A stretch of 64,000 nt of DNA, from NCBI GenBank assembly GCA_963971425.1, contig OZ020515.1:11796291-11860290 (forward strand). Direction: 5' to 3'. Made by a program: the position numbers and the translations under genes. Positions 35,501-57,633 of the stretch are shown here, one piece after another. The notes below the pieces were generated by a model. It was not told where the DNA came from. It ran no database searches and was given only the letters and a program-made list of their open reading frames with translations. Positions within the stretch are counted from its first letter, which is position 1; each line of letters opens with the position of its first letter. The stretch is from Bryoerythrophyllum caledonicum (lineage: Eukaryota > Streptophyta > Bryopsida > Pottiales > Pottiaceae).

Positions 35501-36641
35501 CCTCCGCTTCCAAGATTCTGGACTAGATAGCAGAGTACTCCTCAATCACCGCCACGATCAAAGCTGCTCTGGGTGACGAGGCAAGTGCTTTATGTGAAAC
35601 TAGAGTGTTTTATTGACCCCGAATCAGGTCTGCATTTATTTACAAGCCCTAAGATCCGCCATGCCAACAGCCGGAATGTCACACTGCTCATCACTCCGCT
35701 CACAGCGACATCGTCACCATTTTCCATTTGCTTCAAGTTGATTCCATTTCTCATTCATGTGCCAGCCCTTCGCAGACTGCTCAAAATGCCACCAAAAAAT
35801 TTGAAAAGGGGGACAGTGTTCCTGCGATCCACTTCCCTCAGATGGCCTCCGCCAGCAGCTTCTCCATCTGCTTGATCTTCGTGTCGATCGACAGGTCGAT
35901 GTGCTTGTCCTGGATGTCCACCACGAGCCCCCCGATGATGCTCCGGTCCACCTTCTGCTCCACCTTCAGCGTCTGCCCCGCCTTCAGGTACCCCTTCAGC
36001 GCGTTCTTGATGTCCTCCAGCTCCGCCGGGCTCAGCTCCAGCGCCGCCGTCACCACAGCCTGCACCTCGCCCCGGTGCGCGTGCAGCAGCTCCGAGTAGC
36101 ACCCCGAGATCCGCTCCAGCTGCGCCAGGCGCCCGTTCTCCGCCAGCACCGCCAGGAAGTTCTTCGTCACGGCATTGAACTTCGTCTGCCCGAAGATCTC
36201 CTCCATCGCCTTCATCCGCGTCGTCTTCGACACCGACGGGTCCCGCAAGAAATCCGCGAACACCGGGTTCTGCTCCGCCGCGCCGATCACCTGCTGCAGC
36301 TCCGTCTCCACGGGGTCCAGCACGTTCCCCCGCACCGCCGTCACGTACAGCGCCGACGCGTACTTCCCCGCCACGCCATACATCGGCAGCGGCACCTCCA
36401 CGTGCTGCTCCGCCTCCGCCTTGGCCGCGAACGACCGCACGGCCCGCCCCGCAGACCGTTCAGAATGCCGCGCCAGGGCCACGGCGCTCCGCACGAGCTG
36501 CTGCGACCTCCACATTGTGCTCCGGCTCGCGAATTCTCTCCCGACGACAGCCAAACTAGCAACCTAATCCGCAGAGCACCAAGACGCAAGAAGCTCTAGA
36601 CACAGAATGCGGAGCTTCAAGCCCTAGAAACAATGGGTGCT
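35501..36641 (-). repeat. OSCP gene duplication unit, copy A
   Basis: Inverted relative to 52384-53532. Similarity starts in the 5' UTR (GCACCCATTGTTTCTAG) and runs through the coding region and 3' UTR past the AATAAA signal. It is interrupted by a 50-60-bp unrelated replacement just after the polyadenylation region and resumes for about 45 bp (GAGTACTCTGCTATCTAG and onward). Because it extends beyond the poly(A) site, this was a DNA-level duplication, not retroposition of the mRNA. Confidence 0.85.
35838..36515 (-). CDS. Mitochondrial F1Fo ATP synthase OSCP / delta subunit, copy A
   Basis: 225 residues, single exon, ATG at 36515 (upstream frame has only TTG). OSCP sits on top of F1 and joins it to the peripheral stalk in the mitochondrial inner membrane. 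The N-terminus is an Arg/Ser-rich presequence (MWRSQQLVRSAVALARHSER). The body shows family blocks: YGVAGKYASALYVTAV, the FLRDPSVSK segment, KNFLAVLAENGRLAQLERI, and the signature IIGGLVVDIQDKHIDLS near the C-terminus. It is identical to copy B except two residues (Gly for Arg after VTAVR, and Thr for Ala in SKTxRMK). The absence of introns in a gene that is usually split in plants suggests that an ancestor of both copies was a retrocopy, or that intron loss occurred. Confidence 0.93.
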   Translation of the reverse strand: MWRSQQLVRSAVALARHSERSAGRAVRSFAAKAEAEQHVEVPLPMYGVAGKYASALYVTAVRGNVLDPVETELQQVIGAAEQNPVFADFLRDPSVSKTTRMKAMEEIFGQTKFNAVTKNFLAVLAENGRLAQLERISGCYSELLHAHRGEVQAVVTAALELSPAELEDIKNALKGYLKAGQTLKVEQKVDRSIIGGLVVDIQDKHIDLSIDTKIKQMEKLLAEAI

Positions 36642-36986: not shown

Positions 36987-37423
36987 GAGCACCTCCACCA
37001 GGGACGCGCCAGCCCGGTGGAGACTGCCCTGGGTTTTGGCCCTGAACCCTGCCCCGTGGTTGAGCTGCAGGGCGGCTAGCGCAGCGCTAGCCGGGAGCAA
37101 GGTTATCCGACCTGGAAACCTGGCTCTCATAATAAAAGCCCTGCTGTGGGTCCATGCAAAAACGCGTCAGTGAATGGACTGTCAGTGGCAGCCACTCCCA
37201 CAGCCATTGTTGCTCCACCATGTGCTAGAACCAAATTGGTGGCCTAGCCCCGGTGAAATTTTCAGTCCCCCGCCATATTCTCTCCTTTTCCAGGCTTGCT
37301 CCCAACTCCCTCCATCCCGCCTGACCGGTTTGGCGGCCCCGACCAGCGCGGTGGGGGAGCACCTTCCTCCAGACCTACCAAACCTCACAGGTCTGCCAGG
37401 ATGGGAGCCTGCGGTGGAGGTGC
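36987..37423. mobile_element. Harbinger-like MITE, split at its right tip by the gypsy element
   Basis: Left end GAGCACCTCCACC preceded by TTA (36984-36986). The right end is GGTGGAGGTGC, cut at 37423 by the LTR element. The missing tip (GTGCTC then TTA) is found at 51547-51555 on the far side of the retroelement. Tip and TTA target are of the PIF/Harbinger type. It contains the palindrome GGCTAGCGC/GCGCTAGCC near 37073-37091. Confidence 0.78.
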
Positions 37424-37790
37424 TGTCAGGATTGGCGCATGGAGGTGTTTATATAGATGGTATTCGGGTAGAAACCATCTAGAGAGTTGTGGAGTTACCG
37501 GAGAGCCCAAGACTTAGCGCTAATGGGAGATTAAGGTTAGGTTTAGTGTCGGGTGGCGGCTAGGGCAACGGTGGTGTCTTTCGACACCTCATCTCGGGAC
37601 TTCGAACCCGGATGACCTCCATGTGTGGTTGAGGGAGACTCATCTTTCTCAAGTTGAGTCTCCCACGTGATGAGGTGAGGGTGTGTACGTGTTGCACATC
37701 GATAGCCTTATCCATATCATGTTTTCACTCTTGAAGAGTGGCATGGACTCGACTTATTGTAATTTGTGAGTGTTTATCACTTATTTGTTA
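37424..37790 (+). repeat. 5' LTR segment (block Y only)
   Basis: 367 bp matching 50950-51316 with about 8 differences. After 37790 the similarity stops, so the last 231 bp of the LTR as seen at the 3' end (block X) are absent here. Confidence 0.8.
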
Positions 37791-38069
37791 CTTGAGAAAG
37801 ATCATGTTGTGGAAATGGGTGTAATCACAACATTATTGTACATCTATTGGGGTTTGTTAACGTTGCTCAAAAACCCTGTATCTGCACTGTATCTACAAGG
37901 TGAAACTCTCTTCAACCCAAGAGACCTGATTCGGATATGACAGGGTCTCGAGCGGAAGGACGTCGCTCCACCATCATCCCAGTGTTGTTGCTGTTGTCGC
38001 GGTGATTTGCTCTTGAGGGACTGCTAGTGTTCACCGTCGCAGAAGAAGGCCGCCCTTCCTCGTCATCGC

Positions 38070-38337
38070 ACCATTCCCGGACTGTAACCGAAGTGAAGAT
38101 CATTCTTGACCGAGACACCGGGAGGTCCAGGGGTTTTGGATTTGTGAACTTCACGTCCCTCAGGAGGCTGAAATCGCTCTCCAAGAGATGGATGGCCGGG
38201 AACTTGCTGGTCGTCAGATCCGTGTGCACTACGCTACTGATAAGTCAGCAGGCGCTCCCCCTAGCAGCGGATTCGGTGGCAACCGTAGAGGGTACGGCGA
38301 CCGGCAGCAGGGCGGAGGCCGAGGATACGGCAACTTC
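38070..38337 (+). pseudogene. Glycine-rich RNA-binding protein (RRM) gene fragment inside the gypsy leader
   Basis: Encodes the second half of an RRM, with the RNP1 motif RGFGFVNF preceded by VKIILDRDTGRS, followed by recognisable RRM end and glycine-rich tail segments (YATDKSAGAPPSSGFGGN, RRGYGDRQQGGGRGYGNF). This is the arrangement of plant organellar and nuclear glycine-rich RNA-binding proteins. The first half of the RRM is missing and the copy is broken. It lies between the LTR and Gag, so it is either a transduced host gene fragment or a retrocopy that landed in the element. Confidence 0.78.
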
Positions 38338-38673
38338 TGAGAACGCTGAACTCTCTACTAGTTTTGGCGGCATCAACCTGGAAGAATTAGAGGTTGGGGT
38401 TTCATCGGAGAGTGACTAGGACCTGCTTGTGGCCTGAGTGCCAGGTGGGAGTCCCATTTTGAAGAAGACGAAGGCTGCCGGAGATGCCAAAGAAGGTGCT
38501 GTGTGGAGGTGGCGGAAGAGTTATTACAAGGGTAACTGGCTCGTTGCAGCCAAGCGTTCATAGCGACGCTACTTTTTGATCCTTCAATATCGGCTGTTCC
38601 TATCATTGTGAAGCAGAATTTCCCAAGTGTGGGATTGTTCACCTACTAGTAGGGAATGTGCGGAGCCAGGTGA

Positions 38674-39960
38674 GGTCGGTGTGGAGAGATGTCGGCGTGA
38701 GAGACGCCGCTCGAGTGCTCATCTAGCGGCGCTGGTAAAGACGTGGGGTCGGTGTGGAGAGACGCCGGCGTGAGGGACGCCGCTCGAGTGTTCATCCTCT
38801 CTTCAGTTTCCTTCGGATTTCAAGGTGAAGCACCAAAGTGCCTGCGGACCAAGGTAAAGCGCATTAGTGCTTGCAGAGCTTTTGGAAGTATCAGCTGGGT
38901 TTACGGCTGCTGGAATCAGTTCTCGGTGACGTCAGTGGAGCTTGTGAGCGGAGGATCAGTGGCCGCGCTCTGACGACGGTTGTTACCTGAGCTTGCGCTA
39001 GCGTTTCTCGTGGCGATCTTCTCCGGATTCAGGGTTTGAAACTCACAGGATCTGGTGGCATTGCAACCAAGGAGGTGCTGGGCATCTGGACGAGCTAAAA
39101 GTTGTTGCGGCTTCCTTGAGTCATGTGAAGGAGAATCCCTTGGAGAGAAGGGAGGCAAAATCGGGCTCCAAGTGGTTGACTAGACACCTCGCTGAAGAAA
39201 ACCGGGTCGAGTGCTCCAGACGTGACAATAGTGCCGGCAGGAAGATGAGCATTTCTACCGGAATGAACTCTTGCCAATTATCGTTCACGTCAGGGTGAGG
39301 ACCTCGAACTTAGGATTTTGATTTCATCTCTGTGAGCAGCGACGTCCAGGAGAAGATGATCGTGGAGTGAAGCGCGGAAGTGCTCATTTGGCTTTGAAAC
39401 ATCCACACTGCAATCGGGTGAGTGGTTGACACTTGTGGATTTCTTAAATCTTTATTGAATTCACTTGTAGTGGTGTGGATTTTCGTGGTGCTTTTGATGA
39501 TGCGGAAGCGCTGCCAAAATTTTGTTAGAATTGCATAGTGTAATTGTCTCCATGTGGGAATGATACATGCTTGAGCACATGTTAGCTTTGTGCACATTTT
39601 AGTGCAAGAGTTGCCCGTTTCTAGTGATTTTGATCACTTAGAATTTTAGGGTGGAGAGATAAGTTTGTATGATGCATCTTGTTAGTAAGTGGTGAAAGTT
39701 TGGGACAGCGGGTGCCATAGTCACCTTCTTCTTGCTCTTCGTCATTTTTGTAAGAGGTGAAGGTGTGGGATAGTGGGTATCATTGTTGCCCACTTCTTAC
39801 CCTTGCCAATTTGCTTGTGAGAGTGATTGGTAGAGTTGTGGGATATTGGGTGCCATAGTCACCTTTTTCTTGCGCTTTGCCACCTTGGGGGAGTGACTAG
39901 TAGAGGTATGGGATGGTGAGTGACATTGTCACTTTCCTCTTGCACTTCGGCTAGGAAATT
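38674..39960 (+). repeat. Tandem repeats in the gypsy leader
   Basis: A roughly 49-bp unit (GGTCGGTGTGGAGAGA…CGCTCGAGTG) occurs at 38674 and again at 38747. At 39690-39950 there are about four degenerate units of 65-80 bp containing GTGGGATA-TGGGTGCCATAGTCACC. Long repetitive leaders are common in large plant gypsy elements. Confidence 0.65.
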
Positions 39961-40030
39961 GGATTATGGGAATGTATGGCTAGACTTTGGGTTGTTCTTA
40001 TCAAATTATTGTGCACACTATTGGTGTCTT

Positions 40031-41402
40031 CACTATAAGAAACCCGTGTTTTTTGTGATAGGGCAACTAACGTGCAATTATGTTTTGTGCAGCATCCGGC
40101 ACGTCAGCGTTGACGTCCAAAAAAATCCGTTATAATTGACATGCGAAAAACATGCCAAAATCTCAAAAAATAGGCCCACATTTTTTAAAACATCACAAAA
40201 ACTTGGGGGTTGAAGGTGTTAAAAATCTGCCATGTGGCTGCCACGTTACGTCCACATCATCGCCACATGGACGGGCAGTGCCACATCCCCAATTTTTTCA
40301 TCCGGGCCCTTGGTAATGTGGCCCATGATGTGGCGCATGACGTGGCATTAGATTGTGACTAGGCTTGCATACGTGGACCCACCATTTTATGACGTGGCAC
40401 CTTTAAAATATGACGTGTCACTTTTTAAAATATGACGTGGCATGTCCAATCAGCATAGTTTAATGCAATAATTAATTGTGGACACTGTAAATTGGGACGT
40501 CATTTCTAACAAGGTATGTTTTCTGTGACGTTCGTTATGATGTTTTCTGTGACGTTCGTTGAGATGGAGGTCACCAAAAGCAAGCACCAAGTCAGCAAAA
40601 GCAAGTGCCATGTCACCAAAAAGAAGCACCATGTCATCAAAAAGTACCGTATCACTTTAAGTTTCAAGGGTAATTCAAATTCATCCAAATAGATGGATGA
40701 AAGTGAATCACTCTTGATTCAAGTGTGATGAGATAGGAGAGAAGGCCTTACATATATATACAATGGGATGCACAAGTGGTGACAATCCATATGGGATTAT
40801 TGGATTTGTCATGGTGTTAGCCTCGTGTTAGCATAAACATTAAAATGTCACAGTAGACGTCCATCCAGACGTCTGTTCCAACATCCTATTTGCCTACGTG
40901 GCAGCTGATTTCAACCTTGCCTACGTGGCACAAACATTTTTAAAAGAATCCAATTTCTACCTTGCCTACGTGGCTCAAACATGTTTTTTGTGATGTCAGT
41001 AAGGACATCCACGTTTTTTGTGACGTCAGTAACGACATCCACGTTTTTATTTTTGTAGGGGTCAGCCCATCTCCATTGTGTTTTAACCGTTGGGCAGTGT
41101 TTTACGGGAGGTTGCAGTAACAATCTCGAAGTTACTCATAGTAAAGCTGAAACCCCCCTGCCGACGTGGCATTGTCACCTTTCTGAGGACGTTGTCTAAA
41201 ACATGACTATGTTCACTAGGACGTCCCGCAAAACAAATACGTTTATGCTAACATCTCTGCGTTTTTCCGCCAATTTTTCCATGTTTGATGCAACATCCAC
41301 CAGAATCCGAGAGCCCAAGGCTCGGCCCGTTCGCAAAAACATGTTTTGAAAAACACACTTGATCACAGCTAACGTCACAAAAATCACGGGTTTCTTATAG
41401 TG
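40031..41402. mobile_element. Non-autonomous CACTA element inserted in the gypsy leader
   Basis: 1372 bp with excellent inverted ends: left CACTATAAGAAACCCGTG then TTTTTTGTGA, right end read inward CACTATAAGAAACCCGTG then ATTTTTGTGA. Flanks are CTT / TTT, a 3-bp target with one mismatch. The interior has no transposase but many short direct repeats around GACGTGGC, CCTACGTGGC and TTTTTTGTGACGTCAGTAA, like CACTA subterminal repeats. It must be younger than the gypsy insertion or have travelled within it. Confidence 0.85.
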
Positions 41403-41742
41403 TTTGTATCACATTGAGCTAAGTGTGGCATATGATAGTGAACAAGAAGTGGAATTCTAGCATTTCCCTAATCTAAGGTTATCATCCATTGTGAGTCCAC
41501 TTAATACAACCACGTAAAAACAGTGGGTTGTATCGAGCATATGGGACATGGATAGTGGAGGTAGGAAGAAGGAATCAAAAGAGTCTAGTGCATCCAAGGT
41601 AGAAATTAGCACTGAGACACTTAGTCAGTTGATTTCTTGCCTCCAAGATTTGTAAGTTAAATCTTCACCTTCCCAGGCAAGCTCTAGTGGTAAGGATTTT
41701 GAATTATCTCCCATAGCCAAGTCGCGAATCAGGACCCAAGAC

Positions 41743-42189
41743 TTGCGGAAGCCAGGCACAAAGGTGCTAAGCGAAGAGTCCGTGAAGTATTGGACTTCAC
41801 TTGGTGGGGTGCGCAAAGTTCGAGCGCTTCAGACCAAGGAGGGTGTTCGAGCTCCTCTTTGTCGTGCACGAGGCCAAGTTGAAGCCGTGGATCTTGTGGT
41901 TGGGGAGAAGGCCATTGTCCTAAAGAACGTTGGGTCAAGGTACACCGTGGAGGTGGTGGATTTCCGCCGAGGGAACCAATTGCCCACGTTCTCCCTCATC
42001 TTTACCGAGTTTGAGAGTGAAGGCTTCGTGTTTCATACTACGTGGCAGTGGGAAGTGGGTGCGTGGCAAGAGCGGGCCAGCAGTGTGTGGGACACACTCA
42101 CCTTGGAGCTACTCGATTGGGAAGTACCACCCACTATCTACGCTCCGGAGAAGAAGGGCACTCATGAAGCATGGCGCTTCTTTGATTAA
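41743..42189 (+). pseudogene. Upstream Gag-region ORF of the gypsy element
   Basis: A 148-codon frame with SVKYWTSLGGVRKV and VEAVDLVVGEKAIVLKNVGS, on the same strand as Gag and 0.27 kb before it. A related coding segment extends upstream to an ATG near 41548. No domain recognised. It is probably the N-terminal part of the Gag polyprotein. Described as part of a broken element. Confidence 0.5.
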
Positions 42190-42461
42190 GCCAACCAATT
42201 CTCAATCTGGAGACGTGGAAAGGGCCCGGTTTCACTCAGAGAAACACCCCATTTGTGGTAGGGGTTCGTGAACGAGTGGTGGAGGAAGTTACCACTCAAT
42301 CGAAGGAAGAGGGGGATACGGTTCAACCGATAGTAGAAGAACGTGAGTTTGTGGTAGAATCTTTGGCACGTAGTGCAAGTTCCCCACCAAGAAAGCCTTT
42401 GCAATCAATTTTTGATTGGGAGGAGATGGCTTCACCATAAGGAGGAGGAGGAGAACGGGGG

Positions 42462-44633
42462 GTGCGACGGTTTTTGGGTGCCACGGGCACTATCGAAGTG
42501 GATGACTTCAAGAGGGAGTTCACCATGTGGTGTGAACTCCAGAAGTCTCGCAACCCCAACTTCAACGCTTACATGGTGTGGAGGGCGTTATTTGGATGTC
42601 TAAAGGGAGCTCCGTTAGCGGATTATGGAGAATTCGAGGCGGCTCACCTCACGGAGATATTGACATGGAGGGATTTCTATGCACCGAATTACACGGATGT
42701 ATTCGGCGGAGCGCTGAGTGTTCTATCACGTGTGGGAAAGGGGAAGCAGGAGGAGGGCACGAGTAGTGCCGAGGACTTGAGCCAACCGATGGAAACGGTA
42801 GCTATTCCACCTCCGTTTAACCCTACGGCCGTATTCTTCACACAGATCCGTCGAGACTATCAAGGTCAACGGGCGGATAAGATGAAGGCATTGAGGTCTT
42901 TTGCGCAAGGAAGAGATGAGTCCTTGCGGGAAGCTCATGCGAGATTGCGGAGACTGATTTCTGCTACTCACGGAGTCACGGAGCAGCAAGCGGTGCAACA
43001 CTGGTACAACATCTTAGAAAAGGAGCTGAAGACACTAGTTCGCAATGAGGCATTGCGATTGAGTGAGCCACCGACTTTGAGATTTGTGTTCGAGACTTCT
43101 GAGAGAATTGAGATCAAATTATTGGAAGAGAAAGCGGCCATGGGATTTCTTAAACGTGAAGAGAAGATTCCTGAGAAGGTGAAGGTGGCCAAGGCTGCGG
43201 TTCTCTCCTACGCCACCGACACTGAAGCATTATGCTTTAGTTGTGGCAAACCGGGGCATTTGAGGAAGGATTGTAAGGAAGGCAAGTCCTCTACCCCTCA
43301 AACCGGTGGCTATTGCTCCGGTTGTGGTGCCAAGGGGCATTCCGAGGCTAAGTGTTGGAAGCTTCACTCCGAGTTGAAGCCTTCTAGAGGCAAGGGAGCC
43401 AAGGCAAGCAACAAGGAGAAGGAGTCCAAGTCTTCGGGAGGAGACAAGAAAGGTTGGAAGGCCAAATTCGCGGAGTTGGAGGCCAAGATGGCGGCCATGA
43501 GCGCGAATGCTGCTTCAGTCAGTGAGAAGCCCCAAGTCACTCCTAGTTTTCATGCTGGAGGCGGGTTTAGATCCGATGATGACGAATTCGGGGACTATAT
43601 GCTAAGTGGCATGGCACTTGCTATCACGGATGGCTCACGGGAGGCTTATGCCCTTACGCGGAGTCAAACACCGGTGACAAAGGAGGTTCCACGTGGAGCA
43701 AGTCCAACCTTGGATCCTCAACATGGAAAGGACAACCGGCAAGCTCGATTGCCAGAGTCTTTCACGTTGGAGGAGATGGTGCCAACATCTTCCATGGTGC
43801 CCCCAACGCATCGGGGGGTATCAACAACTCGGCCTACCGTTGGGATTATAGAGCCACCAACTACGGTGGTGAGAGAAGCGGCAAACGTGGTTTGTGAGGC
43901 TTCACTATTTTCTGCTAAATTGATGTCACAAGAGGGCTTCAATGCAGCGGCGGTCTTCAAGATGGAGGCTCAAATGTGTGAGTTGGGTGATTCCACGGGC
44001 GTCAATGCGTTGAAGACGGAAGTGATTGAAAGAAAGGTGGATAAGAGTCAAGAGGGCAATGTGGAGGGGTTGCTTTCAGCAGCCATGCGTATCAAGACCA
44101 TGGCCGCCAGACCTGCAATCGAGAGGTCATGCATTACACCTGGTGTGGTGGTGGTTGACAACTCCCAGGGGATTTTCCAATTTGTTGGGCCCAAGGGGAG
44201 GGTATTTGTGCCTCGACGAGTGCTTTTGGGTTCAGGAGCTCAACCATTGATGTTGGGAGCATCTGCCCGTGAGGGGTTGGGTTTGACTGGGGACACTTTG
44301 GAGAAGTGTCCATGGACAATTAGCACTTCCATGGGAGGTACGGAGCACGCTTCGGACATCACGAAGGCGGAGTTGATTTTAAGACTCAACGAAGATGATG
44401 TCGAGGATGCAAGCTTTATGAAGGTGAAAGCTATAAAAACGGAGGCCAAGTCATACGATGTTTTGGTGGGCTCGGCGGTGCTATACCCCATGGGGTTCAC
44501 CTTGGATTTCTGGGAGGAAATCACAAGTTATAGACCAGGATGGCAAGCAAGAGATGGACGGAAGGCCCAGCTACCAGCTCGTTTTATTCGAGTTCTGACT
44601 AGCAATCTTGCAGACGTGTTTGCCTTCTCATGA
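42462..44633 (+). pseudogene. Gypsy Gag with two zinc knuckles and a retropepsin-like region
   Basis: A 723-codon open frame. Around residues 115-230 lies a retrotransposon Gag domain (QIRRDYQGQRADKMKALRSF, QHWYNILEKELKTLVRNEAL). Two CCHC knuckles follow: CFSCGKPGHLRKDC and CSGCGAKGHSEAKC. Then comes a Lys-rich linker with a helix (KKGWKAKFAELEAKMAAMSA), a variable region, and near residues 570-700 a segment resembling the retropepsin fold (RRVLLGSGAQPLMLGASARE, SYDVLVGSAVLYPMGFTLDF). It is followed directly by the methyltransferase region. Confidence 0.85.
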
Positions 44634-44930
44634 GGCATGGATGTGAGACCATCATGGTTTCACAAGGGTTGTGATACTTTCCCGATGGATATCCCTACAC
44701 TTCACAAGATGGATGCCCATGTGGGTGACACAAGTGGTGGAGACACGGAGACGTATCAACCTGGCATTGAAGTAGCGTGGGGGACCACGACTCAGCTTCA
44801 AAAGGATGCTGAACAAGTCATCGCAGATGCTTGGCAGCATTCTATACTCCCACAAGCGGAAGATGATTCTAGAAGGGACCAAGACTTAGGCCCACCTCTA
44901 GACACTTCCACCATTCACTGGAAAGCACCA

Positions 44931-45940
44931 GAGGAGGGTATTGTGTTGATGGAGTTATTCGGAGGGATTGGAAGTGGCTTGGCAGTAATGCTGCAAGCAG
45001 GGATCAAGGTCAAACACTACATCTACGTAGATGTTGATGAGGCAGCAAGGCACGTGGCTAAGCGGCATTCACGGCGATTGAAGACTCAATTCCCAGACTT
45101 GTTGGCCACTAGTGCCATCAAAACTTCATTTTCTACTCTTGTTGGTGATATTGCTTTGCTTTCAGCAGAGGATATTCACCGTGTTGGCCATGTGGACCTT
45201 GTCATCGCGGGATGGCCATGTCAAGGATTGTCAATGGTTGGACACCAAAACGGGTTGAAAGACACTCGTTCTTCGCGATTTCATGATATGATTCGCGTAT
45301 TGTCTTTGCTTCAAACCTCTCAGAAGCGACCACCAGGTTACATTGTGGAGAATGTACCAGTGGTGAGTAGCTCGAGGTCGAGGACATTGGAGGGCATGCA
45401 CCGCATACACCAGACTCTGGGCATGCGCGTGTTGTTGGATGCAGTTGCGGTGGGATCGCGAGCACATTGCCCGCGATTGTGGTGGCAAATTTAGCACCTC
45501 AAGAGTTGTTACAGTCCGCTGTGGGTCGAATTAAACGGCCGGATGTCTATGTGAGTGATATTTTGGATCCTCACAGGGCACCGCGGTGCGTTTATCATGA
45601 CGACCAAGCACCTTTGGCGGTTGTCAACCGCAAAGGAGAACCACGTAGGGCACTGCCCACGTTGGTTAGTTTTGCTCGGTCGTATGCCTTTAAGGATAAC
45701 GGCCCGGGTCTTGTGTGGGATTCCTTGTCTCAAGAGATGGTGGAGCCTAATACGGATGAACGGGAGAGAGCCATGGGATTTTCCACGAGCACTACCGATG
45801 CGCCCGGGATCTCGGAGCAACAACGGCGATTAATACTTGGGCAAGCGATGGACTTAAATTGCTTGACTTGGATCGTTTCGTTGCTAGTGGCAGAACAGAA
45901 GCAGTTGGCTTCTAGTTTTACTGGTTACATGGGGTCTTAT
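44931..45940 (+). pseudogene. C5-cytosine DNA methyltransferase domain inside the gypsy element
   Basis: Lies between Gag/protease and reverse transcriptase on the same strand. Ordered C5-MTase motifs are visible: motif I (VLMELFGGIGSGLAVMLQAG, the FxGxG SAM-binding turn), the acidic YVDVDEAARHVAKRH, motif IV with the catalytic Pro-Cys (LVIAGWPCQGLSMVG), motif VI (YIVENVP), a VGSRAHCPRLWW block, and further on ERERAMGF and RRLILGQAMDLNCLTWIVS, which correspond to motifs IX-X. In spacing and in the WPCQG / ENVP / RERAMGF style it resembles the DNMT3/DRM side of the family more than MET1/DNMT1, but I cannot build a tree. The domain is not in one open frame in this copy. Retrotransposon-borne DNMTs have been reported in dinoflagellates and in a charophyte alga. 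Confidence 0.85.
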
Positions 45941-46327
45941 GAGTTGCGGGCGGCCAGAAAACCATTTGTCTCTGTCAGGGTGACAGGCAAAGTGGTTGGG
46001 GGCGAGAAGGCCTTGACACCTCACCCATGGAATATGTAGGGCTCCGCGAATCTTTTCACGACACCCAAGACTGAGGATCATCTTCATGGAGTGAAGGATG
46101 GGAGCCGAAGTAGGGGATTGGCCCACCAAACGAAGGATTTGGAGGAGACTATGGAGAATATGTTCGTGGGAGAACACACAACTCAGCAAAGGGAGACAAT
46201 TGGCAAACTAAGCCAATTGGAAGGACTTGGAAGCTTGGTAGACATGGAGGGAAAAGAGTCTCCTTCGCATGGCATCCAATAGCAACCAAGGAAGGAGAAT
46301 CCTGCTCCAAAGGAACCGAAGGAGGCG

Positions 46328-48256
46328 GTGACCAAGGATACTTGGAAACCGATGGTAGGCCTGGCGGATGGAGCAGTTGAGAGAGAGGAACATGAGTTCC
46401 TCAGGGAGTACTTAGATTGTTTTGCCTTTAGTCTTGAAGATCTTGGAGTATTGAAGGGGCAAGAAGTACATATCAATTTGACGGACAAAGCACCAATATA
46501 CCGGAATCCGTACAAGTATAGCAACGTTGAACGGAGGATGATACGCGCTCGTACGGAGAAGTTGGTGGCTGCGGGGCTAGTGGAGTTGGCTCCACCGGAT
46601 TGCGAGTATACATCGGCAACGGTTATGCCATCCAAGAAAGATATCTACGGTAATTGGACCGAGAAGAGGATGTGCGGAGACTATAGGAGGATTAACAAAT
46701 TCACCAAGTCGGATTGTTATGCCATGCCAACGCCGGAGGAGAACTTTGAGGCTATTGGTCACGCCAAGGTATTTAGTACGTTGGACTTGCGCTCTGGATA
46801 CCACCAGATTGGAGTGAGAGAGGAAGACAAGGAGAAGACCGCGTTTTGGGGCATTGACAAAGATGGGAAGGACCGGTTGTTCCAATGGAAATTCTTACCA
46901 TTTGGATTGAAGAATGCGCCCGCCGAATTCCAGAGGGTTATGGACCGAGTATTCTCGGGCTTGGATTTTGTGAGATGCTACATTGATGATATCGTTGTCT
47001 TTAGTACGAATCGAAGGCAACATAGGCTACACTTGATGGAAGTGTTTGCTAGATTGAGGCTCCACGGTTTGAAATTGCACCCTGGTAAGTACAAATTCTA
47101 CTTTGACCGCATCGAGTACTTAGGCCACATGATATATCTAAGTGGATTGGATGTGGTAGCTAGTAAAATTGAAGTAGTGATGTCTATTCCTAGACCAAGG
47201 GATATTAGTAGGCTACGTGCATTCTTGGGGTTGTGTAATTACTATAGAAAGTTTGTGAAGACTTTGAGTGCTATTACCAAGCCATTAACGATGTTGACAA
47301 GGAATGATCAACCTTGGATATGGGGAGATGAGCAAGAGGTGGCCTTTCAAGAGTTGAAGGATCGCTTGGCATCGGCACCTATACTTCGAAGGCCAATAGC
47401 CGGAAGGACATACCAGCTACACACAGATTGGAGTGCATTGGGAATTGGTGCGGTGTTGACACAAATGGATGACGACGGGAAGGAGTTTGTCATTGCGTAC
47501 GCGAACCGATCCAACAATAATGCGGAGGCCCAGTATAGCTCATATGAAGGAGAGTGTTTGGCTGCCATATGGGCAATTGCTCATTTTCGATGTTACCTCT
47601 ATGGTAACGAGTTCTTGTTAGTCACGGATCATCAACCTTTAAAGTGGTTGATGGAGTCTGACAAACTAACAGGCAAGCTAGCGCGGTGGGCCTTGATGTT
47701 GATGGAATACGACTTCAAGGTGGTGCACAGAGCGGGATTGGTGAATTTGGATGTCGACGGCCTTAGCCGCAATCCAATTCCAAACCAAGCGGATGCTACG
47801 GGCGCTAGGTGGCACGGGGAGGATGAAGGCGATCCGTTACCATGTTGGCATTATTCGGCCTTTCTAAGTGTATTGGCGATGCATGGAGATGACACCGGAG
47901 CTTCTACTGTGGCCACGGTAGATGAGGATGGCGGTGAAGAATCTGGGGGCGCCAAAGACATCTTTGAAGACACAAACGTGATGCATTTTCTAAGGAATGG
48001 AGAAGTGGTGCTTGCGTGGTCTGCTAAGGAGAGAGATCGGGTCTCACAACGAGCCAAACGGTTCGTGTGGAAGAGGACTTTCCTTGTGAGGGTGTGGCCG
48101 GATGGCACGCGAAAGGTTGTGCCAACTCCATTGGAGAGAGTGAAGCTCATCAAGGACACGCATGAAGACCTTGGGCACTTTGGAGTGCGGAGGACTATAG
48201 CTTGCTCCAGCTTCACTATTCGTGGCGAGGTATGCAAATTCAAGTTCAAGCCTTGA
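46328..48256 (+). pseudogene. Gypsy reverse transcriptase, RNase H and start of integrase
   Basis: A long open frame of 642 codons. RT blocks: RMCGDYRRINKFTKSD, FSTLDLRSGYHQIGV, the LPFGLKNAPAEFQRVMD block and the catalytic RCYIDDIVVFS. The connection is AFLGLCNYYRKFV. RNase H: TYQLHTDWSALGIGAVLTQM and EGECLAAIWAIAHFRCYLYG through LVTDHQPLKWLM. The integrase zinc-binding region begins THEDLGHFGVRR, and its Cys pair lies just beyond (ARCMICDRVRASF). Confidence 0.92.
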
Positions 48257-49130
48257 TAGCCCGGTGTATGATTTGTGATCGTGTGCGAGCGTCTTTTAAC
48301 GCTCCGATGCCACAATTGCAACCATTGCCAATTATGGGCTTGGGACATAGGTGGAGCTTAGATTTTGCTGGTCCATTGCCAGTGACACCTTGACACAACA
48401 AATATGTATTGGTGATGATCGAGCACTTCTCGAAATGGATAGAGTTGGTGTCGTTGCCTGACAAGTTTAGTGAGAGGGCCGCTTACTCTTTTCTCGATCG
48501 TGTATTGAGCCGCTTTGGAGCTCCAGCGGAAGTTCTCACAGACCAAGGAAGGGAATTCTTGGGTGAGTTTCAAACGTTGTGTGAGCAAGCGATGATAGAT
48601 CACCGCACTACTTCGAGGGATCATCCCGAAGTGGATGGCTTGGCGGAGCGCATGGTGCAAACCGTCAAGAGGGGGCTTCGGAAGTATAGTTTGAAGAAGG
48701 GACATCATCAAGATTGGGACTTGTAATTACCGTGGATAGCCATGGGCTACCGGTTTAGTAAGCAAGCATCTTTGGCGTCCTTTTCTCCTTACTTTTTGTT
48801 GTTTGGAAGGCAACGAGTGTTACTGAAGGCCATTCAGGCAGATGCTGACACCGTGTTGGCTAACATGGACAATCCAGATACGTGGGCTCAAGTGTGTGAG
48901 CAACGTACGGATTTGTTCAAACGGGTGATGCCTATGGCATTGGAGAATCTTTTCATTGCTCAACATCGGGATACGTTGTGTTATGCTACAATACGGGGAG
49001 GAGGCTACCGACCGCAAGTGCGACGGTTTACTCCTGGAGACTATGTGTATTTGCAACAAGCAGCGCCCACCACCATGGATGTGACAGCGGGACGGGTGAT
49101 CTTGCGAGTTCGTGAGGTGAAGAACTCATG
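48202..49130 (+). pseudogene. Gypsy integrase core and C-terminal region
   Basis: Core blocks in order: HRWSLDFAGPLPVTP (first Asp), the HFSKWIELVSLPDKFS segment, the RFGAPAEVLTDQGREFLG block (second Asp) and DGLAERMVQTVKRGLRKYSL (Glu). Then the GxxSPYFLLFGR-type segment near 48790, and a GPY/SH3-like C-terminal portion (RRFTPGDYVYLQQAAPT, GRVILRVREVKNS). It is in several pieces. Confidence 0.85.
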
Positions 49131-49254
49131 AGTGTTACTGTTGGAGGGTCGTAATGGTAAAATATGGAAGGATCATACGCGTAATTGCGCTCCTTGCCAT
49201 TTACCACACATTGATGGAACGGTAAACCCTAGTATTTCTCACATCTCTTCTGGG

Positions 49255-49386
49255 TTGCGATGTCAATTGTGTGGTAGTGCCAAACGGGCAGCCACAATGG
49301 TCATTTGTGACTTGTGTTCTACAGGGTGACATCTAGAATGTCTAATCCCACCTCTTCTAGAGGTACCAGTGGGTCAATGGCAGCCT
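49255..49386 (+). pseudogene. PHD-finger-like module after the integrase
   Basis: Cys/His spacing follows a PHD finger: CQLCGS, then MVICDLCSTG, then HLECLIPPLLEVPVG with QW. The block 'hydrophobic-CD-C--G--HLECL-PPL--VP-G-W' is the conserved PHD second half. It sits where chromoviruses carry a chromodomain, so it probably reads histone H3 and steers integration. This copy is broken. Confidence 0.72.
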
Positions 49387-50716
49387 CTTTATTAGGAAAA
49401 AAATATCTTCGAAGGGCTGGCGATATTCCCTGGCTTCAAATATGGGCAGCTGGCTAAAAATAAAAGAGGTGCTAGCCAAGCAGCTGGCTACAAAATGCAA
49501 AAGCCTTGTACATAGGTGGCTATGGATAGATCTCAAATATAGAAGTATGTTGGCTACAATCCGACTTTTCACATCCACACTATTGGCTATTGCAATTTTT
49601 TCTCCATGGCTGAGGTGGCCACAAATCAATATGTGAAAAAGAAAACTTGGCGACAACTATTAAATTTACACTAATTTTCATAGCAAACACATTCAATACT
49701 TACATCTTACATGGGAACAACCTTGTAGGCTACGGTTCACAACAATATATCATTTCATTTCACAAACCTAGGAACTTTGATATTGGAAGTTTGATGTGCT
49801 TAATATTTTCAAACTTTGATATTGGAAGTTGATTTTCTGAATCTTTTGACGCACTCCTTTGATGTTGTTTTTGAGGTCAATGTCTACTTTGCAAAGAGTG
49901 GGAGTACTGATGTCAGATTGAACATGACACTTCTATGGCGCCAAAGTTTAAAAGAACTAAACAACTTCCACCATTCAATCAAGAAAGCACCACAAAATTT
50001 AAAATACATCAAACTTGAGAACCTTGGCTACAAGTCCCACACTTCATGTACTTCAGTGATGAATCATGGTATTAGCGACAGATCATACTATAGACTACTG
50101 TAGAAAAGTATATTGGCGATAGTCTGTCCACTCTGAAGTATGCTTTTGGCGAGTGGTGACAAAGGAGAATGAATTGTTTTCACCGAGATTGACTCTATTG
50201 GCGATATCATCCAATCTAAATGGCCAAAAGTAGTGAAGTACTAGCTACCAATCACAGATCAGTATCAAAGGGATACGATCTGATCTGGCTATGCCATCAC
50301 TACCTTCGTAGATGTACTGGCATCTGCTCCCTACAAGCAGTGGCAATTAGGCTATAAAATGGTATTTTAGCCCTAGTTTTCCTTGTGAGGATTTTGAAGC
50401 AGCCAAGTGGATGGTGAAATACTTCGATTTTTAGCCAGTTCTAAAAAGGCTGGTCAATGGTCGTGTCCAAATTATTTAGCACATTAAGAGTCTACGTAGA
50501 CAAGGTCTAGCCATTAAAAGTATTAGAGGCGATTAACGATGGGGCTCTCATTGCACCCGGCCTATCATTTGTCTATACGGTCTATTAGTGTCTTTTCTAT
50601 AGGTCACCTTGATTTTTCTGGACTTGAGAGGTTTTCATGCTCAGTCGTTCATACACTTTACGTTAATTGTGTGGTTCGCCGGTGTGAAAGGGGCTTCAGC
50701 ACGGGCGAAGGGGGCG
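49387..50716. other. AT-rich 3' untranslated part of the gypsy element
   Basis: No coding frame. The phrase TTGGCGA recurs (about 50112, 50148, 50198) and GGCTA phrases are frequent, which could mark a further unrecognised insertion. A purine-rich tract (gggcgaagggggcgag, about 50703-50718) directly precedes the first X block and is a candidate polypurine tract. Confidence 0.45.
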
Positions 50717-50948
50717 AGTAAAGGGGTCCTTGTAGACCAATTACTAAATGTTATGGTTTGGGTATTTATTTCTTTTTCCCTAGCCTAGGTTGTTGGAGGT
50801 TGATAGTTTCTTTTGTGAACTATTGTTTTCGTTGTTTACGGAGGCAACAGTGATAGTATAGTCACCGTTGCTCTGAGTTTGCCTCTAATTGTGCGCTCTC
50901 ACCTGTTGGCACGATGTTATCTTTGCACGATGTGTTTGTGCACGACAG
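50717..50948 (+). repeat. Extra copy of LTR block X
   Basis: 232 bp matching the last part of the 3' LTR (51316-51547) with about 6 differences. Two bases separate it from the TGTCAGG start of the 3' LTR, giving the order X-Y-X at this end, while the left end has Y only. Confidence 0.8.
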
Positions 50949-50949
50949 C

Positions 50950-51546
50950 TGTCAGGATCGGCGCATGGAGGTGTTTGTATAGATGGTATTCGGGTAGAAA
51001 CCATCTAGAGAGTTGTGGAGTTACCGGAGAGCCCAAGACTTAGCGCTCATGGGAGATTAGGGTTAGGTTTAGTGTCGCGTGGCGGCTAGGGCAACGGTGG
51101 TGTCTTTCGACACCTCATCTCGAGACTTCGAACCCGGATGACCTCCACGTGTGGTTGAGGGAGACTCATCTTTCTCAAGTTGAGTCTCCCACGTGATGAG
51201 GTGAGGGTGTGTACGTGTTGCACATCGATAGCCTTATCCATATCATGTTTTCACTCTTGAAGAGTGGCATGGACTCGACTTATTGTGATTTGTGAGTGTT
51301 TATCACTTATTTGTTAGTAAAGGGGTCCTTGTAGACCAATTACTAAATGTTATGGTCTGGATATTTATTTCTTTTTCCCTAGCCTAGGTTGTTGGAGGTT
51401 GATAGTTTCTTTTGTGAACTATTGTTTTCGTTGTTTATGGAGGCAACGGTGATAGTATAGTCACCATTGCTCCGAGTTTGCCTCTAATTGTGCGCTCTCA
51501 CCTGTTGGCACGATGTTATCTTTGCACGATGTGTTTGTGCACGACA
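50950..51546 (+). repeat. 3' LTR of the gypsy element (blocks Y and X)
   Basis: 597 bp, TGTCAGGATC … TGCACGACA, followed by GTGC, the same tetranucleotide that precedes the left LTR segment. Y is shared with 37424-37790 and X with 50717-50948. Confidence 0.78.
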
Positions 51547-51555
51547 GTGCTCTTA

Positions 51556-52250: not shown

Positions 52251-52383
52251 CATCCGGGGCACTATATGATGAAAGCACCACAAGTCCCGCTCCGTTCCAC
52301 GCGCAGTTCCATGCGAGGTCCGACTTCGTCTCTCTCCGTGGATCGCTTGCGTCATCTCGTGCTGCAAGCGTAGAATTGCGGCA

Positions 52384-53532
52384 GCACCCATTGTTTCTAG
52401 GGTTTGAAGCTCCGCATTCTGTGTCTAGAGCTTCTTGCGTCTCGGTGCTCTGCGGATTAGGTTGCTAGTTTGGCTGTCGTCGGGAGAGAATTCGCGAGCC
52501 GGAGCACAATGTGGAGGTCGCAGCAGCTCGTGCGGAGCGCCGTGGCCCTGGCGCGGCACTCTGAACGGTCTGCGGGGCGGGCCGTGCGGTCGTTCGCGGC
52601 CAAGGCGGAGGCGGAGCAGCATGTGGAGGTGCCGCTGCCGATGTATGGCGTGGCGGGGAAGTACGCGTCGGCGCTCTACGTGACGGCGGTGCGGAGGAAC
52701 GTGCTGGACCCCGTGGAGACGGAGCTGCAGCAGGTGATCGGCGCGGCGGAGCAGAACCCGGTGTTCGCGGATTTCTTGCGGGACCCGTCGGTGTCGAAGA
52801 CGGCGCGGATGAAGGCGATGGAGGAGATCTTCGGGCAGACGAAGTTCAATGCCGTGACGAAGAACTTCCTGGCGGTGCTGGCGGAGAACGGGCGCCTGGC
52901 GCAGCTGGAGCGGATCTCGGGGTGCTACTCGGAGCTGCTGCACGCGCACCGGGGCGAGGTGCAGGCTGTGGTGACGGCGGCGCTGGAGCTGAGCCCGGCG
53001 GAGCTGGAGGACATCAAGAACGCGCTGAAGGGGTACCTGAAGGCGGGGCAGACGCTGAAGGTGGAGCAGAAGGTGGACCGGAGCATCATCGGGGGGCTCG
53101 TGGTGGACATCCAGGACAAGCACATCGACCTGTCGATCGACACGAAGATCAAGCAGATGGAGAAGCTGCTGGCGGAGGCCATCTGAGGGAAGTGGATCGC
53201 AGGAACACTGTCCCCCTTTTCATTTTTTTTGTGGCATTTTGAGCAGTCTGCGAAGGGCTGGCACATGAATGAGAAATGGAATCAACTTGAAGCAAATGGA
53301 AAATGGTGACGATGTCGCTGTGAGCGGAGTGATGAGCAGTGTGACATTCCGGCTGTTGGCATGGCGGATCTTAGGGCTTGTAAATAAATGCAGACCTGAT
53401 TCGGGGTCAATAAAACACTCTAGTTTCACATGACTAACCTGAAGTACTCGCCTTCTGTTGTTTCTCTCATAATCAGAACTTGATACCCCTTCGAGTACTC
53501 TGCTATCTAGTCCAGAATTCTTGAAGCGGAGG
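52384..53532 (+). repeat. OSCP gene duplication unit, copy B
   Basis: Inverted partner of 35501-36641, about 15.7 kb away, with the gypsy element in between. The AATAAA signal is at 53409-53414. Similarity ends on the right with GAAGCGGAGG. Confidence 0.85.
52509..53186 (+). CDS. Mitochondrial F1Fo ATP synthase OSCP / delta subunit, copy B
   Basis: 225 residues, single exon, ATG at 52509. 223 of 225 residues equal copy A: the same Arg/Ser-rich presequence and the same FLRDPSVSK and IIGGLVVDIQDKHIDLS blocks. Reading frames, UTRs and the polyadenylation signal are intact in both copies, so both look functional. I cannot tell which is the parent. Near identity across the coding region means either a recent duplication or ongoing gene conversion. 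Confidence 0.93.
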   Translation: MWRSQQLVRSAVALARHSERSAGRAVRSFAAKAEAEQHVEVPLPMYGVAGKYASALYVTAVRRNVLDPVETELQQVIGAAEQNPVFADFLRDPSVSKTARMKAMEEIFGQTKFNAVTKNFLAVLAENGRLAQLERISGCYSELLHAHRGEVQAVVTAALELSPAELEDIKNALKGYLKAGQTLKVEQKVDRSIIGGLVVDIQDKHIDLSIDTKIKQMEKLLAEAI

Positions 53533-56762: not shown

Positions 56763-57633
56763 ATGGCACTTGAGCGTCCAGTTAGTCCAGCATGTGATCC
56801 CAAATCTGGTGTAAGTAATTATCTTCAAATACTCAAAACAATCAATATTGATGCTCTAAAACGATTGTAAACCTTTTCTTCTACAATTTGATATTTTTTA
56901 ATACATAATCTATGTTATTCTTTCACATATACAGGAAGGTAGAAAATGTGTTTGCAAAGTTTGTACATGCGGCTTCCACAAATGTCCCCAAAAACATACA
57001 TCAGTGCATACCAAATTTGGAGACAATACAATCTCGGAATATTGTGCAAAATATCCAGAATGGCCTATGCCTTCAAAATTCAAGCGTAAACCAGAAAAAC
57101 ACGATTTTGGAAACGCCAGGATTTCCTCTGCCACTACTTACAGTGATGATTTTGTCAAGCATCCACATGGCCCAGCTAAAATATTTGAACCTCCTACTAG
57201 AAAAGACAATAGTGGTCCATTTATGCCATACACCACCTACAATGTTGATTTTACAGAAAAAACAATTGGACCTAGACATAGAATGCCTGTTCAAAAGCAT
57301 GGAGGAAGCCAAAAATTTACTGGCCAATCTCTATATTCTGTAGAGTTTACAAATCCTGGCAAACAACCAGGAAATCAAATTGTTAGACATGGTGATAATT
57401 TGGGCAGCCGTGGTGCTAAATTTGACTCGGATAGCACGTACCATGATGATTTTAGACAATGGAAAATGCCTACAAAATATGTTCATAAAAAACAAGACAA
57501 TCCTCAACCAACCGGCAAAATTGAAGGTCCTACTATGTACCAATCGGATTTTCAAGGTCGCAAGATTGAGAACAAATGCCCTGTGTATGGTAGTAAACCT
57601 ACAATTGTTTGTGGTGATCACATGTGTTATTAA
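56763..57633 (+). CDS. SAXO-like stabiliser of axonemal microtubules
   Basis: Two exons, 56763-56810 and 56935-57633 (248 residues), phase 0. The Cys-rich N-terminal module CVCKVCTCGFHKCP is the hallmark of SAXO/FAM154 proteins. It is followed by regularly spaced Mn-type repeats with a (T/S)(T/L)Y--DF core: ATTYSDDFVKHP, TTYNVDFTEK, QSLYSVEFTNP, STYHDDFRQW and TMYQSDFQGR, roughly every 35-40 residues. SAXO proteins bind inside axonemal doublet microtubules and centriolar microtubules, so the gene should be expressed in flagellated sperm cells. The downstream end (VCGDHMCY) keeps a Cys pair. Codon use is AT-rich, unlike the other host genes here. Confidence 0.88.

Follow-up and report, generated by a model that had tools for sequence, protein, structure and literature searches.

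A multicopy Ty3/gypsy-type retrotransposon with a DNMT3-like methyltransferase and split repeats in a land-plant genome

The genome of a land plant, probably a moss, contains a multicopy family of Ty3/gypsy-type retrotransposons which carry their own DNMT3-like cytosine-C5 DNA methyltransferase (DNMT) and whose ends are formed by two split repeats, in the order A1 - internal - B1 - A2 - B2, in place of an ordinary LTR pair. We regard it as probable, on balance, that this is a gypsy-type element with a working DNMT3, which primes its own reverse transcription and integrates from a two-repeat circle cut at a B/A palindrome. One damaged copy lies in the window, meaning the whole stretch of 64,000 nucleotides analysed here, and it was for this copy that an earlier note had proposed a Ty3/gypsy element of a streptophyte with a built-in C5 methyltransferase. 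That such an element exists, in many copies and in a streptophyte, is supported by PF00145 and ORF2 searches of the host genome and by a tree of the ATP synthase OSCP protein. The window OSCP protein has a Sphagnum protein as its nearest named record and groups with Sphagnum and Physcomitrium (82/82) in this one-gene tree, which makes the host probably a moss and so extends the phenomenon to a land plant, a possibility that the note had raised.

Results

The window copy

Sequence comparison places the element at 37424-51546, between a target-site duplication GTGC at 37420-37423 and its repeat at 51547-51550; all stranded features given here lie on the plus strand. Its left end is repeat A1 (37424-37790), which starts TGTC and aligns to A2 with 8 mismatches over 367 positions. 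A hairpin loop region within A1, ATCTTTCTCAAG (37642-37653), is the presumed self-primer, and the primer binding site CTTGAGAAAGAT (37791-37802), immediately 3' of A1, is its exact complement. A variable leader slot follows at 37856-39361, its bounds set by comparison with copy c5, and contains a sense-oriented piece of an RRM/glycine-rich RNA-binding protein mRNA. The first part of ORF1 (42441-44630) comprises Gag, a CCHC knuckle and a protease-like region, and is followed by the DNMT3-like C5 methyltransferase domain (44934-45967), which in better copies is the C-terminal part of ORF1. ORF2 (46283-49380) contains RT, RNase H, an H2C2 zinc finger, a DDE integrase and a C-terminal PHD finger region. 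To the right, the purine-rich tract GGCGAAGGGGGCGA (50704-50717), presumed to be the polypurine tract, stands immediately 5' of repeat B1 (50718-50947), and repeats A2 (50950-51316) and B2 (51317-51546) complete the element, B2 finishing in GACA. The palindrome GACAGCTGTC at the B/A junction (50944-50953) is a presumed internal integrase site. Two nested insertions interrupt the element, both missing from the relative c5: one at 40031-41403, with inverted repeats CACTATAAGAAACCCGTG near its ends and probably a DNA transposon, and one of 1.07 kb at 49381-50451.

The methyltransferase motifs described in the earlier note (FGGIGSG, GWPCQGLS, ENVP, RERAMGF and GQAMD, in this order on the plus strand) were verified, as was their position between the Gag/protease frame and the RT frame (46283-48253). 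The region matches the DNA_methylase profile PF00145 at 4e-13, and as judged by this profile a chance match is excluded, given the 123 matches scored genome-wide. The proposal that the element encodes its own methyltransferase therefore stands with respect to the domain, which profile and motifs identify as real, and fails for the window copy itself, in which it is broken: an in-frame TGA (44631-44633) closes the Gag-protease frame ahead of the DNMT, the DNMT changes frame near 45470-45485, and ORF2 changes frame near 48200 and contains stops. Given these broken frames and the nested insertions the window copy is a relic, and the argument therefore rests on its relatives, among them L009, whose intact DNMT has about 92% amino-acid identity to window positions 44934-45967.

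The family in the host genome

A PF00145 profile search of the 437 Mb host genome gave 123 scored matches among 1055 first-look candidates. Of 29 loci fetched besides L001, 21 were read, 17 directly on the plus strand and four via fetched copies, and in all 21 the enzyme is the same as the window DNMT. The top-scoring PF00145 match, L001 (G000:C14:16014858-16018817), was not counted with the family. It encodes what reads as a full-length bacterial-type C5 methyltransferase, lies on a long contig beside a gene that by eye resembles an IS transposase, and is probably contamination or a transfer, misassembly being a further option.

Ten copies (c1-c10), picked for long frames and hence a favourable sample, fall into subfamilies N (c1-c4, c8, c9) and H (c5-c7, c10 and the window copy). 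ORF1 measures 1295-1340 aa in nine of the ten, the fetched stretches clipping it, and reaches 1371 aa, the commonest length of the family in the PF00145 search, while a full ORF2 of 1041 aa is present in four (c1, c2, c4 and c5). In the better copies ORF1 contains a CCHC knuckle, a protease match below cut-off and the DNMT, and Pfam identifies RT, RNase H, H2C2, an rve integrase and a PHD finger (2.3e-09) in ORF2. A genome search with ORF2 gave 44 scored copies among 7883 candidates, all 95-100% identical, and in at least 31 of the 44 a DNMT match lies 571-883 bases upstream of ORF2, which contradicts the possibility, raised in the earlier note as grounds for refutation, that other gypsy copies lack the domain. 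A1 and A2 are 100% identical in c1 and in c5, a sign of recent activity.

Identity of the methyltransferase and selection

The C5 methyltransferase motifs occur in order, with the catalytic PC and EN and, from motif VIII, HxxR, and residues P105, C106, E149, N150, H188 and R191 are conserved in at least 90% of 37 relatives. A PDB sequence search with the DNMT returned DNMT3A as best match, then DNMT3C, M.HhaI and DNMT3B close together, with M.HhaI scoring about equal to DNMT3B, and M.HaeIII and DRM2 lower. The structure model of one open-frame DNMT domain, built with a 37-sequence alignment, has a pLDDT of 81 and a pTM of 0.82; in a fold search with this model all of the best 50 matches listed are DNMT3 structures, with TM-scores near 0.6 by query and reaching 0.81 by target. 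By alignment and by model, the methyltransferase is real and DNMT3-like.

Mean dN/dS was calculated by the Nei-Gojobori method from 20 ORF1 pairs (nine copies, c9 being excluded for its short frame) and 12 ORF2 pairs (eight copies, c7 and c10 being excluded likewise). Between subfamilies N and H, where dS exceeds 1 and is thus saturated in several segments, the values are 0.04 for the DNMT, 0.03 for RT, 0.01 for RNase H, 0.02 for the integrase core, 0.04 for the C-terminal part of the integrase, 0.07-0.09 for Gag, CCHC, protease and PHD, and 0.16, 0.25, 0.38 and 0.17 for four inter-domain linker segments; within subfamilies the DNMT gives 0.12-0.13. Since its value is near those of RT and integrase, the DNMT has been conserved about as stringently as the enzymes of replication and, as read from these substitution ratios, is a retained working part of the element's machinery under strong purifying selection.

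Ends of the element

The order A - internal - B - A - B is found in eight of 11 copies (c1, c2, c3, c5, c7, c8, c9 and the window copy) and A - internal - B in c6 and c10, while c4 has B - A - B at the right and a left end that was not located. None of the 11 (the ten fetched copies and the window copy) has the order LTR - internal - LTR, and the description of the element as LTR-bounded is thus not borne out; an ordinary LTR element was rejected, the left end being A alone and the right end B-A-B, or B in c6 and c10. The left terminus is TGTC (TGTG in c7) and the right terminus GACA. Target duplications of 4 bp, read by eye in the flanking sequence, border every one of the 12 copies for which both ends were located, at 12 different places. 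Ten come from the 11 copies of a first set that includes the window, c4 being the one without a left end, and two from the three of a second set, in which c11 is without a left end. They read GTGC (window), CCTC, TAGT, AAAT, AGGA, AACT, ATCG, GGCA, TCCG and CCGT, with ACTT and ACTC in c12 and c13. The rve (DDE) integrase of ORF2, the TG...CA ends and the short target duplication are as in canonical Ty3/gypsy elements; a tyrosine-recombinase element was rejected, there being no such Pfam match in ORF1 or ORF2 and target duplications being present. The B1/A2 junction reads GACA-GC-TGTC, a pattern found 156 times in the genome with at most 2 mismatches, against 2 for the reversed pattern. Tandem extra B-A units were also seen among the places listed, with three junctions 599 bases apart at C9:22325811-22327009 and two junctions 605 apart at C12:23034656-23035261; these fit circles with more than two repeats, or later or unequal recombination.

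A presumed self-primer in two families

The 12-nt complement stands at offset 0 in eight of eight script-readable copies and corresponds to a hairpin loop 144-176 nt upstream of the end of A. An equal complement length was given by only 0-1 of 2000 shuffles of A, and a 36-nt hairpin block is identical between the subfamilies although their A repeats are only 67% identical. That the primer site can pair with RNA of the element itself points to self-priming, which we presume to take place.

A distant family, a third PF00145 group in the same genome and represented by one copy only, has a DNMT 54% identical to that of the main family and repeats that do not match those of c1 and c5 at the DNA level. 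Its right end reads B - GACA-GC-TGTC - A - B, then AGCA, with the same junction GACAGCTGTC as in the main family, and its hairpin loop is GTCTTTGTCAAG. From this right end the primer site CTTGACAAAGAC was predicted before the left end was read; the expectation of AGCA there has no prior record. The first left stretch of this copy (L057) contains no A1, which is found in the next (L060), where AGCA is followed by TGTCACGGG, so that AGCA is the target duplication. CTTGACAAAGAC lies one nucleotide past the aligned end of A1 and matches the family's own loop GTCTTTGTCAAG. As compared in these sequences, primer site and loop have changed together between the families, in a compensating manner.

The leader slot

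A slot of about 1.3-1.7 kb separates the primer-site leader from the gag leader, and its sequence differs in most copies examined (37856-39361 in the window, 2871-4411 in L039, 2993-4563 in L041 and 721-2460 in L053). The slots were compared over leader positions 500-1400, at identities of at least 80%, for the 12 copies whose primer site could be located: only c1 and c2 share the full slot; c7 and c10 share about a quarter, c5 and c7 about a tenth, c13 shares pieces of under a tenth with c1, c2, c3, c8 and c9, and the remaining pairs share none. Some N slots share repeat-like pieces at the lower identity of 67-79%, and the case for foreign cargo is therefore strongest in H. Four of six H slots contain sense-strand stretches that match host-type proteins: RRM in the window, thioredoxin/PDI together with TruB_C_2 in c6, ATP synthase alpha/beta in c12 and, by PDB search where Pfam gave none, chloroplast Cpn60 alpha in c5. 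No host-type protein match was found in the c7 and c10 slots, nor in one scanned frame each of c13 and c1, the slots scanned excluding those of c3, c8 and c9, and none of ten antisense frames, drawn from four slots, matched a Pfam profile. These comparisons suggest that the slot repeatedly captures pieces of host mRNA, probably when the template is switched at a late stage of minus-strand synthesis.

Relatives in other organisms

A protein search with the DNMT domain returned 178 matches; the names among the 120 listed include Calypogeia fissa and Sphagnum troendelagicum, and one match among those listed is labelled as a bacterial bin. The ORF1 search gave 55 matches over the DNMT region, including Marchantia polymorpha, Sphagnum fallax and Closterium. 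Most protein relatives come from metagenomes or unnamed sources, and the Calypogeia proteins show the DNMT part alone. Among the scanned proteins the DNMT stands before RT in the main family, Marchantia P0135, Closterium P0172, P0150 and P0175, and after RNase H in P0153, P0157, P0162 and P0174; P0153, P0157 and P0162 also have a PHD finger, as does P0175 below cut-off. In both trees a split sets apart the order with the DNMT after RNase H, at 100/99 in the DNMT tree (11 of 35 rows) and at 99/97 in the RT tree (10 of 17 rows). As the trees are without an outgroup, they fit one capture followed by relocation, or two captures, alike. The DNMT groups with the retrotransposon DNMTs of other bryophytes and algae, as the earlier note's reading would have it, in a tree from which the host's own DNMT3 is absent. 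A scan of viral contigs by alignment pattern gave 45 pattern matches, none of which was confirmed.

Discussion

Replication and integration

In the LTR-element scheme the primer site and the polypurine tract define the ends of the cDNA. Applied to the present element, reverse transcription would begin by self-priming, the RNA hairpin loop in A annealing just after A1, and the cDNA strands would end at the primer site and the polypurine tract to give a linear B-A-internal-B-A molecule. Joining of its ends would yield a two-repeat circle whose joint is A/B, as inside full copies, and the DDE integrase would cut this circle at one of its two B/A palindromes (GACA-GC-TGTC) and not at the A/B joint, the GC being dropped at the cut to leave an A-internal-B-A-B insertion. 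The circle is proposed as the integration substrate because the cDNA ends fall at A/B and the integration ends at B/A; we infer it, as well as the transcript start and the activity of the enzyme, from sequence alone. The A-internal-B form of c6 and c10 is allowed by a one-repeat circle and equally by ordinary recombination between B1 and B2. Before insertion the DNMT would methylate the cDNA or the circle, and the integrase would be tethered through its PHD finger to chromatin that carries a particular state of the H3 tail; the presence of the domain, as predicted, leaves the histone mark read unspecified.

The ends and target duplications of the element are those of a linear substrate, and they would be accounted for without any circle if RNA running from A1 to B2 were copied via a B1-A2 bridge into a linear A-internal-B-A-B molecule, whose TGTC/GACA ends would integrate like the cDNA of any LTR element. 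Such use of an internal repeat as a bridge template has been proposed for PAT/DIRS elements. The A1...B1-A2-B2 order is likewise that of the split direct repeats which, in the parts of PMC6681497 that concern them, flank the coding region of Ngaro, PAT-like and VIPER elements, although these use a tyrosine recombinase where the present element has a DDE integrase and target duplications. Against a direct linear product stands the position of the primer site and the purine tract at the A/B borders, as though marking where the cDNA ends, and the return of the primer site to the A1 border, within one nucleotide, in the distant family; we therefore hold this alternative to be unlikely, if a serious one. 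The B-A tandem arrays at two of the listed places might suggest that the split repeats are artefactual, produced by nested or tandem insertions or by the assembly, but every testable copy as a whole lies between the two halves of its own 4-bp duplication, at 12 different places, and the repeat order recurs in the distant family, which makes such an origin very improbable. Scarcely credible, too, is a one-off capture of the host's own DNMT gene by a single element, contradicted as it is by the DNMT upstream of most scored ORF2 copies, by the joining of DNMT and RT in Marchantia and Closterium proteins and by the agreement of the RT and DNMT trees on their main split; a host-gene insertion was ruled out by the many copies together with the DNMT/RT fusion in relatives.

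The role of the methyltransferase

The most likely substrate of the DNMT would be the element's own cDNA or circle, the nearest candidate, and methylation of the element's own DNA was proposed by de Mendoza et al. in the relevant part of their study (PMC5890265). CpG content gave no consistent trace of self-methylation when ten copies were compared with both flanks: observed/expected ratios are 0.46-0.53 in N, 0.73-0.89 in H and 0.39-1.00 in the flanks, with the element below both flanks in three copies (c1, c4 and c9, all N), above both in one (c10) and mixed in six, and CpG depletion was rejected as a sign of self-methylation for want of a consistent difference. The enzyme could instead be a passenger or a host-protective brake with no part in replication, kept for lowering the harm of insertions; a benefit to the host was raised by de Mendoza et al., in whose account Symbiodinium elements without a DNMT also transpose (PMC5890265, in the passages on these points). 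Its dN/dS between subfamilies, close to the values for RT and integrase, and the related enzymes in elements of liverworts, mosses and algae speak against such a role, which we judge to be quite unlikely. The earlier note had cited a 2018 study in which retrotransposon enzymes methylate CpG de novo. In the pertinent sections of that study (PMC5890265), de novo CG methylation was shown for the dinoflagellate DIRS enzymes; the Klebsormidium gypsy enzyme gave no methylation, a result called inconclusive by its authors.

Relation to known elements

DNMT3s in retrotransposons have been reported in streptophytes and dinoflagellates (PMC12344493, in part), and gypsy elements with a DNMT and DIRS-like repeats have been known from Klebsormidium since 2018 (PMC5890265, in part), so that the present finding is an extension of that report. 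KnitGypsy-Dnmt3 of Klebsormidium nitens resembles the moss family in its gypsy RT, RNase H and rve domains, its Dnmt3-type DNMT, its DIRS-like repeat order and the purifying selection on its DNMT, but differs in that its DNMT lies in the Pol ORF, whereas here the DNMT closes the Gag-protease ORF1 and RT opens a second ORF, and in its host, a charophyte there and probably a moss here. Compared by description, the account of KnitGypsy-Dnmt3 in the sections of PMC5890265 concerned is without 4-bp duplications, a co-varying self-primer hairpin, a PHD finger or a leader slot. In those sections SymbioDIRS-Dnmt3 and SymbioLINE-Dnmt are likewise retrotransposons with built-in DNMTs, but they use tyrosine recombinase or LINE machinery and show no relationship with the gypsy elements. 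In the open-licence literature, supplements excluded, no report was found of such elements in a named bryophyte. The moss family would accordingly add land-plant hosts, many copies, target duplications which suggest that the split-repeat unit is inserted in DDE fashion, a co-varying self-primer, a B/A palindrome in two distant families, a PHD finger and the leader slot, to the extent that these can be read from DNA.

Tf1/sushi elements are known to self-prime, their primer site being complementary to their own RNA; here, unlike there, the complement lies in a hairpin loop within A and the element's ends are permuted. A circle-type integration site is an old idea for retroviruses, where it was ruled out by linear substrates, and the end anatomy of the moss element offers a natural case in which a DDE integrase appears to use such a site. 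Gene-capturing LTR elements of the maize Bs1 type also hold pieces of host genes inside a retroelement (PMC13317346, in the part on this type), but in the moss family the cargo differs from copy to copy in most of those examined and occupies one fixed leader slot. Tentatively, and with rather less assurance than for the element itself, we suggest that in a bryophyte/algal gypsy lineage the integrase inserts a two-repeat circle at an internal palindrome, uncoupling the ends of replication from those of integration, that the element's own DNMT3 and PHD finger prepare the circle for chromatin, and that in the present host a fixed leader slot is repeatedly refilled with pieces of host mRNA.

These observations extend the range of gypsy elements with a DNMT from a single charophyte to land plants, with relatives in the model liverwort Marchantia. 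With many copies, some having near-identical repeats that point to recent movement, the question of why a transposon methylates DNA becomes testable in bryophytes.

Two further observations concern the surroundings of the window copy. The OSCP gene occurs twice, in 1.05 kb segments at 35592-36641 and 52383-53431, which form an inverted pair with 99.0% identity and enclose the retrotransposon. An open frame at 56902-57633 appears by eye to encode a SAXO-type (axonemal microtubule-stabilising) protein, which fits a plant with swimming sperm.
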